Shown in pieces: positions 40,820 to 60,993 of a DNA stretch of 64,000 nt (positions within the stretch are counted from its first letter, which is position 1; every line of letters begins with the position of its first letter). Source of the DNA: Candidatus Synechococcus calcipolaris G9 (GTDB taxonomy: Bacteria > Cyanobacteriota > Cyanobacteriia > Thermosynechococcales > Thermosynechococcaceae); NCBI RefSeq assembly GCF_029582805.1, contig NZ_JAKKUT010000002.1, positions 954,001-1,018,000 on the forward strand, in the 5' to 3' direction. The notes under the pieces were generated by a model. That model was not told the DNA's origin. It worked only from the letters and a program-made list of their open reading frames with translations, and searched no databases. The position numbers and the translations under genes were made by a program.

Positions 40820-41227
40820 TTAAAGCAATTTCTCTAGGCGTTGGCGTAGACTATTAAGTTCACTATCGGAAAGTTGATCCTCTAATTCCGCCGCTGGTGG
40901 CACTATATTTTCTAGCTCCCAATCCGTTTCACCCACATTACTTTCGGGAGGGCTAAGGAATAGTCGCTCGGCATCACTCTTGGGAACAAATCCTTGGGGA
41001 ACTCGCTGGCAAGCGTAGCCAGACGCATCGCAGAATTCTTCAATCTCTGCCGCATCAATTTCCACCACGCTAGGAGCATGAAAATCTTGGGCTTCTAGTA
41101 ACAGGGCATAACGAGTGGCATCGTCCTCAGCCTCGAACATTAGGATTAGGTTGCGATCGTTGACCTGTAGGGAGTGAATTCCCTCGCTTTCGGTTCCAGG
41201 GTTAAATAGTAAAACGTACACACGCAT
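40820..41227 (-). CDS. DUF3110 protein
   Basis: A 135-residue soluble protein starting MRVYVLLFNPGTESEGIHSL, which is the characteristic DUF3110 opening (start ATG 41227; eight extra upstream codons are unlikely). A conserved DAAEIEEFCDASGYACQRVP region follows, then an acidic variable tail. The function of the family is unknown. It is probably in one operon with DUF2854. Confidence 0.88.
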   Translation of the reverse strand: MRVYVLLFNPGTESEGIHSLQVNDRNLILMFEAEDDATRYALLLEAQDFHAPSVVEIDAAEIEEFCDASGYACQRVPQGFVPKSDAERLFLSPPESNVGETDWELENIVPPAAELEDQLSDSELNSLRQRLEKLL

Positions 41228-41392
41228 TTTATTGATTGACCAACTGCCCATTAAAGTGTACCTGATTTTACCTCAATGACTCTTTCTTGCTGAATAACTG
41301 GGGATTTTAGGGCAAATTATCGGGCGAAGAGCATCGGCGATCGCTGGGTTTTGAATAATCTAGCTAGAATGTTTTAGAAAAACTGACTGAGT

Positions 41393-41408
41393 TGTGATCT
41401 ATATCACA
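41393..41408 (+). promoter_or_regulatory. Perfect CRP-type operator
   Basis: TGTGA-TCTATA-TCACA, an exact TGTGA-N6-TCACA palindrome, the consensus for cAMP receptor proteins including cyanobacterial SyCRP1. Its centre (41400.5) is at -41.5 relative to the predicted start (41442) of the small RNA, the canonical class II activator position. A -10-like TAATAC is at 41430-41435, and no good -35 is seen, as expected for an activator-dependent promoter. Confidence 0.65.
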
Positions 41409-41441
41409 GTCAATATTGAGTTTGATCCGTAATACTAGAAA

Positions 41442-41521
41442 GTGACTCAGTACTATCCGAGTCATCAACAGGGAACACACAACGAGCCGACAAGCTGTTA
41501 ATTTGGTTTGTCGGTTTTTTT
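41442..41521 (+). ncRNA. Predicted small RNA of about 80 bases
   Basis: Free-standing transcript unit in the gap between two minus-strand genes. It has a 5' hairpin (TGACTC 41443-41448 with GAGTCA 41459-41464) and an unpaired A/C-rich middle (CAACAGGGAACACACAAC). It ends with a rho-independent terminator (CCGACAA 41487-41493 with TTGTCGG 41508-41514, then seven T). The layout resembles cyanobacterial Yfr RNAs, but the Yfr1 motif (ACTCCTCAC) is absent. A Yfr2-like GGGAACA word is present, which is weak evidence. A perfect CRP site lies at -41.5. Confidence 0.55.
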
Positions 41522-41549
41522 CTAGTCTTTAGAAATTATAATCTAGCGA

Positions 41550-42407
41550 TTATGTTCTAGAAATTTGAAGCTGATAGGTCATAGCTGCTGTTGCTCCTTT
41601 TCCCCGCACGGTTCCTGTAATGGGGGCTGCATCTTCAGGCTGGGCTGCGGCAACTAAGGCAATATGGCGATCGGCGACCGCTAAGCCATGGGTTGGATCG
41701 TATCCTCGCCAACCGGCCCCAGGCAAATAGACCTCGGCCCAGGCATGGAGATGACGTTCTGGACTATCTTCATCCCCTTCTTGGTAGCCACTGACAAAAC
41801 GTGCGGCCAAACCCACAGCCCGACAGGCATGGATAAATAACACTGTTAAATCTCGGCAAGAGCCGGATTGCCGTTGCCAAGTCAGACAGGGGGGCCAAGG
41901 TTCACCAGTTTCGCGAGTTTGATACCCACAGGTTGCATAGAGTTTTTGATTTAGCTCACTTAGGAATACCAGCAGATTATTATCAACGCCAGTGGCAATT
42001 TCCCAGGCGAGGCCATGGGCAACGGGATCGATACCACCGGGAAAACCTGCTGACCCTAGATAGGGACTCAGGCTGTTGTGCAAGGTTCGCGGATAGTCGA
42101 GGGGAAGTTGGGTTGCCCAGGGATGGAGAAGAAATTGAAAGGGGTTTATGCAATGGGTTTCTACCTCAGCCATGATTTGGATGGAGAGCATGGAGGTGGG
42201 TAACTCGGGCCACCAAAGTTGGAGAATGGGGTTGTTTGCCTCATCTAATATCTGACTTTCACCCTTGGGAAGGGGAGATACTTGGAGTTGAAACATTAGT
42301 AAGGATTGATCACTACTACACCGGGGCCGCAGGCGAACCACATGGGGGGCAAGTTCTACGGCCTGGCTATAGGTGTAGGTCGTTTGATGAGAGATTTTAT
42401 AGCGCAT
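41550..42407 (-). CDS. Transglutaminase-like protease-fold protein
   Basis: A 285-residue cytosolic protein. The bacterial transglutaminase N-terminal beta domain comes first (MRYKISHQTTYTYSQAV, VRLRPR). The papain-like core follows: the catalytic Cys is in RQSGSCRDLTVLFIHACRA, the His in HAWAEVYLPGAGWRG, and the Asp in YDPTHGL. All three catalytic positions look intact. Its start overlaps the alpha-E gene stop by one base (TAATG), so the two are coupled. Such pairs are proposed to make or trim small peptides or peptide tags. Confidence 0.9.
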   Translation of the reverse strand: MRYKISHQTTYTYSQAVELAPHVVRLRPRCSSDQSLLMFQLQVSPLPKGESQILDEANNPILQLWWPELPTSMLSIQIMAEVETHCINPFQFLLHPWATQLPLDYPRTLHNSLSPYLGSAGFPGGIDPVAHGLAWEIATGVDNNLLVFLSELNQKLYATCGYQTRETGEPWPPCLTWQRQSGSCRDLTVLFIHACRAVGLAARFVSGYQEGDEDSPERHLHAWAEVYLPGAGWRGYDPTHGLAVADRHIALVAAAQPEDAAPITGTVRGKGATAAMTYQLQISRT

Positions 42408-59205: not shown

Positions 59206-60993
59206 TTAGATACTAAAGAGGGTCTTTAGCCGCTCTCGAATCCAGAAGAGGGGCGGTAAACTAGAGTCACTTTTACCATTGGCATCCACTAAGCCCAACT
59301 CCTGAAGAACTTGTTGCCGGGCAGCGAGTTCATTGGCAATTTCTTCGGCGAGGCGAGGATGAACCTGGAGGAGTTTCTGGAGAGTCTCACGGTTGACAAC
59401 AAATAGGGTGGAGTCCTCTAGACAGCGCACCGTAGCGGTTCGGGGCAATCCCGTTAGGACAGAAATTTCCCCAAAAAACTCTCCTTCGTGCAGGGTTGCC
59501 AGAATTTGATCGAGGCGTTCAGAGCGAATTTCCACGGCCCCCGACAAAACAATATAAAAAGCATCTCCCTCGTCATGCTCACGGAAAATTACTCGACTAG
59601 CGGGAAAAAACTGCCGATGGCCCAGTTCAATCAGCATTCGTATTTCAGAGTCAGTACAGCGCGAAAAATAACTAATATGCCGGAGTAATTCTGCCAAGGC
59701 TGGGGTTTTCTTAACGCGGGCGGCCTTTTGGCGAAGGACGGTGGAGGAATCCTCTTGGGTTAGCTGTTGGGAGGGAGAATCATTGATCAACGCCCGCAGA
59801 CCCCCAATATCCTTGACATGGAGATCGAGTTGGGGGAAGGGGACTTGAATCCCCCGATGTTTGAGTTCCTGTTCAATGAGAAAGTTGAGGGCACTTTTAA
59901 TCGGTTCTGAATCCTGGGGGCGATCGATCCACGCAAGTAGATCAAACTCGTAGGCACTCTCGCCAAACTTGCGAAACCAAACGCTAGGGGCCGGATTTGT
60001 TAATACACGGGGATCCTGACGGGCGGCACTGAGGAGAGCCTCGGTCACTAAAATGGTATCACTGCCGTAGGCAATGCCCACCGGGACATGAATGCGGCTA
60101 TCGGGACTACCATAACTCCAGTTGACCACGTTCTTTTCAATGAAGCGATTATTGGGCACAATCACGTATTGGCTATCATTGGTGCGAATTACGGTAGAAC
60201 GAATGGAAATTTTCTCGACAGTTCCCAGGAGTCCATCTACTTCGATAAAATCTCCCACTTTAATGGGATGCTCCAACAGAATCGTTAAACCACTAATAAA
60301 GTTACTGGCTAGACTTTGCAAACCAAAACCAAAACCAATACCGAGAACCCCTGCTAAGACCGTGAGGGAACTCAAATCAATGCCAGCGGTTTGAAGAACA
60401 ACAATAAAACCAATCAAACTGAGGGCATAGCTAATGGCACGGGTAATGGTTTCCTGGGAGCCTCTATCAACGCGAAGTTGAATCAAGATGCGTTGTTTAA
60501 TCCATTCACTGATCCAACGGGATACGAAGAAGACCATAATGGATAGAAAGACAATCCAAAAAACAAATCCCAAGGTGACTTCAGTACGTCCAAGCTGAAA
60601 AAAGGGCGTTGTAAAAAGGGTCTGAATTTGCTTACCAATTCTCTCGGTCAAGTTATTGACATGGCGTTGGAGGGGGCGGAAGGTCTCTATCGATCGCAAG
60701 CTCCAGGAAATTAAGCTCACCCAAAGAAATATTCGTATCCCCAGTCGAAGCAGAGAAAATCCGAGGCCAAACCAATCTTGTTGCTTTTGATTGAATTGAT
60801 GAATCTTTCCCTGAAGCCAACGGCCGCCTTTTTGAATTAACAACCAATCTAGAAAAATGACGATCCCCGCCATTAGACCAATTTGGAGTGCTTCTAATAC
60901 AATTTCAAAAAAACGTTCCCGGCGTTGATTAATTGCGCCAGTTAAAAGGGATGTTTCTAAGGAAATCAGAAACCAAAGAATCTGTTTGCTCAT
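59206..60993 (-). CDS. MscS-type mechanosensitive channel with cyclic-nucleotide-binding domain
   Basis: A 595-residue inner-membrane channel. An N-terminal extension with additional helices (about 5-150) leads to the MscS core. TM3-like and beta domains carry GVLGIGFGFGLQSLASNFISGL, then IKVGDFIEVDGLLGTVEKI. A C-terminal cNMP-binding domain occupies about 440-560 (GAVEIRSE, LHEGEFFGEISVLTGLPRTATVR). Start ATG 60993 overlaps the ankyrin gene stop by four bases (ATGA), which decides the start. It should open with tension and be modulated by cAMP or cGMP. Confidence 0.9.
   Translation of the reverse strand: MSKQILWFLISLETSLLTGAINQRRERFFEIVLEALQIGLMAGIVIFLDWLLIQKGGRWLQGKIHQFNQKQQDWFGLGFSLLRLGIRIFLWVSLISWSLRSIETFRPLQRHVNNLTERIGKQIQTLFTTPFFQLGRTEVTLGFVFWIVFLSIMVFFVSRWISEWIKQRILIQLRVDRGSQETITRAISYALSLIGFIVVLQTAGIDLSSLTVLAGVLGIGFGFGLQSLASNFISGLTILLEHPIKVGDFIEVDGLLGTVEKISIRSTVIRTNDSQYVIVPNNRFIEKNVVNWSYGSPDSRIHVPVGIAYGSDTILVTEALLSAARQDPRVLTNPAPSVWFRKFGESAYEFDLLAWIDRPQDSEPIKSALNFLIEQELKHRGIQVPFPQLDLHVKDIGGLRALINDSPSQQLTQEDSSTVLRQKAARVKKTPALAELLRHISYFSRCTDSEIRMLIELGHRQFFPASRVIFREHDEGDAFYIVLSGAVEIRSERLDQILATLHEGEFFGEISVLTGLPRTATVRCLEDSTLFVVNRETLQKLLQVHPRLAEEIANELAARQQVLQELGLVDANGKSDSSLPPLFWIRERLKTLFSI

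Follow-up and report, generated by a model that had tools for sequence, protein, structure and literature searches.

We report that the block at positions 41393-41521 of a 64,000-nucleotide (nt) stretch of the Candidatus Synechococcus calcipolaris G9 genome (contig NZ_JAKKUT010000002.1, positions 954,001 to 1,018,000; hereafter the window, whose numbering is used throughout) probably carries, at a probability that we put at about 0.74, the free-standing gene of a trans-acting, base-pairing small RNA (sRNA) of about 79 nt, predicted to be activated by the cyclic-AMP receptor protein (CRP) with cyclic AMP (cAMP) and to belong to a new family working like CyaR. Conservation, covarying structure, box positions, promoter spacing and the regulator and cyclase-like genes were computed; transcription, CRP binding, the response to cAMP, base-pairing and the identity of the targets are what we infer. 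A free-standing sRNA gene under putative CRP control is supported by comparative evidence, namely the conservation of the RNA, the covariation of its stems, the fixed positions of the CRP half-sites, a spacing of 22 base pairs (bp) in the promoter, and the presence in the genome of SyCRP1-like and cyclase-domain genes. An earlier reading made from the letters of the window (the sequence-only reading) had proposed such an sRNA; beyond its view, the family turns out to be widespread, most of its members have two CRP boxes, and tandem repeats are frequent.

Conservation and distribution of the RNA

When positions 41370-41530 were used as a blastn query against 58 related genomes, this sequence on its own matched 36 of them, and in the closest genus most alignments span query base 18 or 23 to 152-156, corresponding to about 41387 to 41521-41525. 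DNA conservation ends at the block edges, so that the comparison across genomes, which the sequence-only reading had suggested, found the block conserved in relatives and its surroundings not. A covariance model built from 22 sequences, the window included, detected the RNA in 187 of the 390 genomes of the class and in 85 of 160 genera; the window RNA, itself among the model's own 22 sequences, scores 94.3 bits (E 1.7e-19) over all 79 positions. A pattern scan of named genomes returned 92 stretches, nearly all of those listed being cyanobacterial, and the carriers that it named include Thermosynechococcus, Leptolyngbya, Acaryochloris, Phormidesmis, Oculatella, Myxacorys, Stenomitos, Aphanocapsa and Coleofasciculus, among others. 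The non-cyanobacterial matches (L044 and L086) consist of a 22-base match in another context, devoid of the family hairpin or terminator, and were treated as chance. A laxer search of 33 genomes negative with the covariance model gave one marginal match only. As judged from these searches, the family is missing from many lineages with CRP as well as from those without it; the lineages lacking the RNA appear to include Synechocystis and Synechococcus elongatus, an absence that would account for its having been overlooked so far.

The palindrome alone is weak evidence and by itself not improbable. The operator TGTGATCTATATCACA is the sole match in the window at no more than one mismatch, a tolerance at which 1.4 matches are expected in shuffled sequences; genome-wide, five perfect copies occur, and 52 sites at no more than one mismatch compare with 43 for the reversed-pattern control. 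The block as a whole arrangement is nonetheless far beyond chance, since it recurs in many genera and its conservation stops sharply at either end.

Structure and core of the RNA

The RNA is predicted to fold into two hairpins, the second being a terminator, separated by a 17-base core, ATCAAYRGGGAACACAC, that is nearly invariant across the family (RNA consensus AUCAAYRGGGAACACAC) and predicted to be unpaired, with unpaired probabilities mostly between 0.8 and 1.0. The hallmark of the family is GAGTCATCAAYRGGGAACACAC, and GGGAACACA is invariant in the 22 sequences of the first alignment. Folding gives z = -4.3 for the whole RNA and z = -5.9 for the terminator. The 5' hairpin, unpaired core and strong T-tailed terminator of the sequence-only reading were all found where it had placed them. 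In each of two larger alignments, compensatory changes in the 5' and terminator stems affect 10 of 15 pairs on both sides, counts that are biased towards the model because both alignments were fitted to it; none of 500 shuffles reached the observed values, and slid controls remained far lower. The same two stems were obtained with RNAalifold on the first alignment. Duplexes that the core could form with the core of Yfr1 or with the anti-Shine-Dalgarno sequence are predicted to be weak (-4.4 and -4.9 kcal/mol, respectively). One locus (L025, 1498-1588, minus strand) has an insertion of about 49 bases in the 5' hairpin and retains the core, the terminator and an upstream CRP-like box.

Promoter and CRP boxes

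Across 152 loci, a -10 hexamer nATAnT starts 12 bases (100 loci) or 13 bases (41 loci) before the conserved G of GACTC, a position that makes this G, or one or two bases earlier, the likely start of the transcript; in the window the -10 box places it at 41442-41444. The sequence-only reading had rightly called a -10 box, in a register (TAATAC) that the alignment moves: the family consensus nATACT puts AATACT one base downstream, at 41431-41436. Its perfect TGTGA-N6-TCACA palindrome is indeed present at 41393-41408, and the position of -41.5 that it gave for the operator, with a -10 box, holds within the uncertainty of the start, the centre in the window lying at -41.5 to -43.5 depending on the start chosen.

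Most relatives carry two boxes. The distal one, usually a perfect GTGA-N6-TCAC, is centred at -63.5 or -64.5, and the proximal one is degenerate (TGATC-N2-GATCGC) and mostly at -41.5; in most two-box promoters the proximal box lies exactly 41.5 bases upstream of the conserved G, with the -10 box at -12 to -7. The distance from one box to the other, close to two turns of the helix, is 22 bp in 53 loci and 23 bp in 21 loci. One perfect box instead of two is found in the window, in the closest genus and in a few other genomes of the same family. Of 99 dereplicated loci, 84 have perfect CRP half-sites (8/8) at one or other of two fixed positions upstream; shuffles give about 0.01.

By sequence, the promoter has the features of a class II CRP promoter: a TGTGA-N6-TCACA operator has its centre near -41.5 and is followed by a -10 box. 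At the block no sigma-70 promoter was matched that includes a -35 hexamer. In the window 22 bp (41409-41430) separate the CRP box from the -10 box. The same spacing has been reported for promoters that CRP activates in Synechocystis 6803 and Anabaena 7120 (PMC2633013). The window promoter resembles those regulated by SyCRP1 and AnCrpA in box consensus and in having about 22 bp between box and -10 hexamer (PMC2633013), and differs in that the known examples listed drive protein genes, whereas here the product is an sRNA, usually with two boxes.

Regulator and cyclase genes

The genome encodes one SyCRP1-like protein (P0001; G000:C2:1343886-1344578), with a cyclic-nucleotide-monophosphate (cNMP)-binding domain and a CRP helix-turn-helix. 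Its recognition helix, ARETVTRVL, keeps the residues of its Escherichia coli counterpart, SRETVGRIL. NtcA-like proteins are encoded separately, several cNMP-domain regulators being present altogether, and the adenylate/guanylate cyclase domain has four matches in the genome. A CRP orthologue (E-value below 1e-60; the four counts were tallied by hand from two lists) is present in 174 of the 187 sRNA-positive genomes as compared with 109 of the 203 sRNA-negative ones (odds ratio 11.5, Fisher test), a co-occurrence that speaks for CRP control though it is confounded by shared ancestry. In the window itself, positions 59365-59613 (minus strand) encode a cyclic-nucleotide-binding domain within an open frame of about 660 amino acids (aa), a further possible cAMP-linked protein.

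Relation to known RNAs

The RNA matched no family of Rfam 15 when the window and eight distant members were searched at gathering and at loose thresholds, the only window match above the gathering threshold being a tRNA elsewhere. Among the openly licensed papers searched, supplements and subscription papers aside, none on cyanobacterial RNA prints the core string GGGAACACAC and none reports a CRP-driven cyanobacterial sRNA. We rate the RNA as a new family of a known kind; a published table of start sites may list it without a name.

The closest analogue in its way of working would be CyaR (RyeE), an enterobacterial sRNA activated by CRP-cAMP (PMC4098024), with which the RNA shares a short free-standing gene, its own terminator and apparent, here predicted, activation by CRP-cAMP; it differs in belonging to another phylum and in the two CRP boxes of many members. 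Like Yfr1, it is a short, widely conserved cyanobacterial sRNA in which two stem-loops flank an invariant unpaired core. The Yfr1 core, however, is CACUCCUCACACC (PMC4734099), which is absent from the block, and the promoter is another one, so that the sequence-only reading was right to set Yfr1 aside. The Yfr2 family is likewise cyanobacterial, present in several copies per genome and widely distributed, but in its members the 5' end is unpaired and a motif sits in a central loop (PMC2662882), whereas the present RNA begins with a hairpin and carries its core between hairpins. The lack of an Rfam match separates the RNA from CyaR, Yfr1 and Yfr2 alike. ApcZ (SyR2) is also a cyanobacterial sRNA whose gene adjoins a phycobilisome core gene in some genomes; it was rejected as differing in origin, and the present RNA lies tail-to-tail with an ApcD gene in certain relatives, the window not being such a case.

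Proposed mechanism and alternatives

We propose that a cAMP-bound, SyCRP1-type regulator would bind the TGTGA-N6-TCACA box, centred some 41.5-43.5 bp before the start, and would recruit RNA polymerase in the class II manner, a second CRP dimer presumably binding two helical turns further upstream in most relatives. The transcript would end at its own intrinsic terminator, and the core AUCAAYRGGGAACACAC, exposed between the two hairpins, would most likely pair with several mRNAs encoded elsewhere, changing their translation or stability when cAMP rises.

A number of observations weigh against this proposal. Pattern searches of seven or eight genomes with the core complement found no conserved target site: up to three mismatches in 18 bases gave a slight excess (22 non-self matches, compared with 12 for the reversed-pattern control), up to one mismatch in 12 bases gave none over the control, and no site at a gene start was conserved between the genomes searched. 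In one genome family (f32, probably the Nostocaceae) a shorter inner pairing takes the place of a weak outer 5' stem, and 9 of the 99 dereplicated loci are without a clear box. Shared ancestry confounds the co-occurrence with CRP orthologues, and the 109 genomes with CRP and without the RNA mean that CRP does not require it. Most of the 13 sRNA-positive genomes without a CRP orthologue are incomplete or fragmented. The clear exception is the near-complete G288, which keeps the RNA with intact boxes and a changed terminator stem although its crp gene is reduced to a broken remnant, a pattern that would be consistent with recent loss of the pathway. This remnant (L253, G288:C1:2550410-2550691; L193) shows 71% identity over residues 136-229 and contains two stops.

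The failure to find a conserved core target in seven or eight genomes leaves room for a CRP-controlled RNA that binds or sequesters a protein through its GGGAACACAC core instead of pairing with mRNAs. The very strict conservation of the core, in which GGGAACACA does not vary, would agree with this, and tandem near-identical copies would suit titration. Each RNA has, however, a single core and no repeated binding sites, no candidate protein is at hand, and pairing with multiple targets can also fix a core, as in Yfr1 (PMC6778093, PMC4734099); we therefore regard protein binding as unlikely, and mRNA pairing as the better account of the core. Less likely still is a real RNA whose boxes are bound by another protein of the CRP/FNR family, or serve repression and not activation. 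Several cNMP-domain regulators, including an NtcA-like protein, are encoded in the genome, and G288 retains its boxes without an intact crp; against these stand the fit of the boxes to the CRP consensus and not to the NtcA consensus GTA-N8-TAC, the CRP recognition residues of P0001, and a G288 remnant that looks recent, while a box at -41.5 with a -10 box and no -35-containing sigma-70 match is the geometry of an activator.

Two readings that deny a separate sRNA gene fare worse. The block could be a leader or attenuator of a neighbouring gene, as the plus-strand gene lying 12-15 nt past the terminator in the closest genus might indicate, but the gene that follows lies on the other strand in the window, as it does in many relatives, and neighbours vary by lineage, making this very improbable. 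That the block encodes a very small protein is hardly credible: a direct reading of the window does give a GTG-started frame of 19 codons through the RNA (GTG ACT CAG TAC ... TAA), but most relatives have an in-frame TAG in the hairpin loop (GTG ACT CAA CTC TAG), most members lack an ATG in the core, and translation would have to begin without a leader.

Genomic setting and copy number

The features of the block and its flanking genes are listed in Table 1. The gap lies, as the sequence-only reading had it, between genes on the other strand. The RNA gene is free-standing, with its own predicted promoter and terminator, no conserved reading frame and neighbours that are not fixed, which are the marks of an sRNA gene. 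In many relatives it stands tail-to-tail with the gene of a protein of about 200 aa (40 loci) and/or with apcD, encoding allophycocyanin alpha-B (30 loci); neither adjoins it in the window. The conserved protein of about 200 aa is encoded downstream of the RNA in, for example, L019, L014 and L067, and is followed in several cases by apcD; a 120-aa part of it gave no Pfam match.

In several genomes the RNA gene is repeated in tandem, two to five times, and most of the copies have boxes and a terminator of their own. At L084, L097, L067, L043, L040 and L196, each with three to five tandem copies, the RNA bodies are near-identical and the promoters divergent. Tandem copies possibly reflect dosage amplification with concerted evolution.

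Table 1. Parts of the block and flanking genes, in window numbering
Feature	Positions	Strand	Basis
CRP-type operator TGTGA-N6-TCACA (TGTGATCTATATCACA), perfect, centre 41400.5	41393..41408	+	direct reading; fixed positions in relatives
-10 promoter hexamer AATACT (family consensus nATACT)	41431..41436	+	family alignment; starts 22 bp past the CRP box end
Predicted small RNA, about 79 nt	41442..41521	+	covariance model; blastn with the window sequence
5' hairpin GUGACUC...GAGUCAU	about 41442-41465	+	RNA folding; two-sided pair changes in relatives
Unpaired, nearly invariant core AUCAACAGGGAACACACAAC, presumed target- or protein-binding site	about 41464-41483	+	unpaired probabilities; alignment
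Intrinsic terminator: 14-pair stem, 6-base loop, T run	41484..41521	+	folding; stem covaries
DUF3110 gene, flanking	40820-41251	minus	
Transglutaminase-like gene, flanking	41550-42407	minus	

Significance

Predicted CRP regulons differ greatly between cyanobacterial species (PMC2633013). The output of cyanobacterial cAMP signalling is poorly understood, and here an RNA with CRP boxes has a core nearly fixed across 85 genera. More tentatively, and with rather more doubt than confidence, the family, found in about half of the cyanobacterial genera, might be a main RNA output of cAMP-CRP, with two CRP dimers on most promoters, tandem amplification in some lineages, and a post-transcriptional cAMP regulon that the standard model strains lack. 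If transcribed and CRP-dependent, the RNA would let cAMP-CRP activity be followed through one readily measured reporter and would give conserved access to the post-transcriptional targets of cAMP-CRP. For photosynthetic bacteria it would thereby connect cyclic AMP with gene control in a new way that can be tested.
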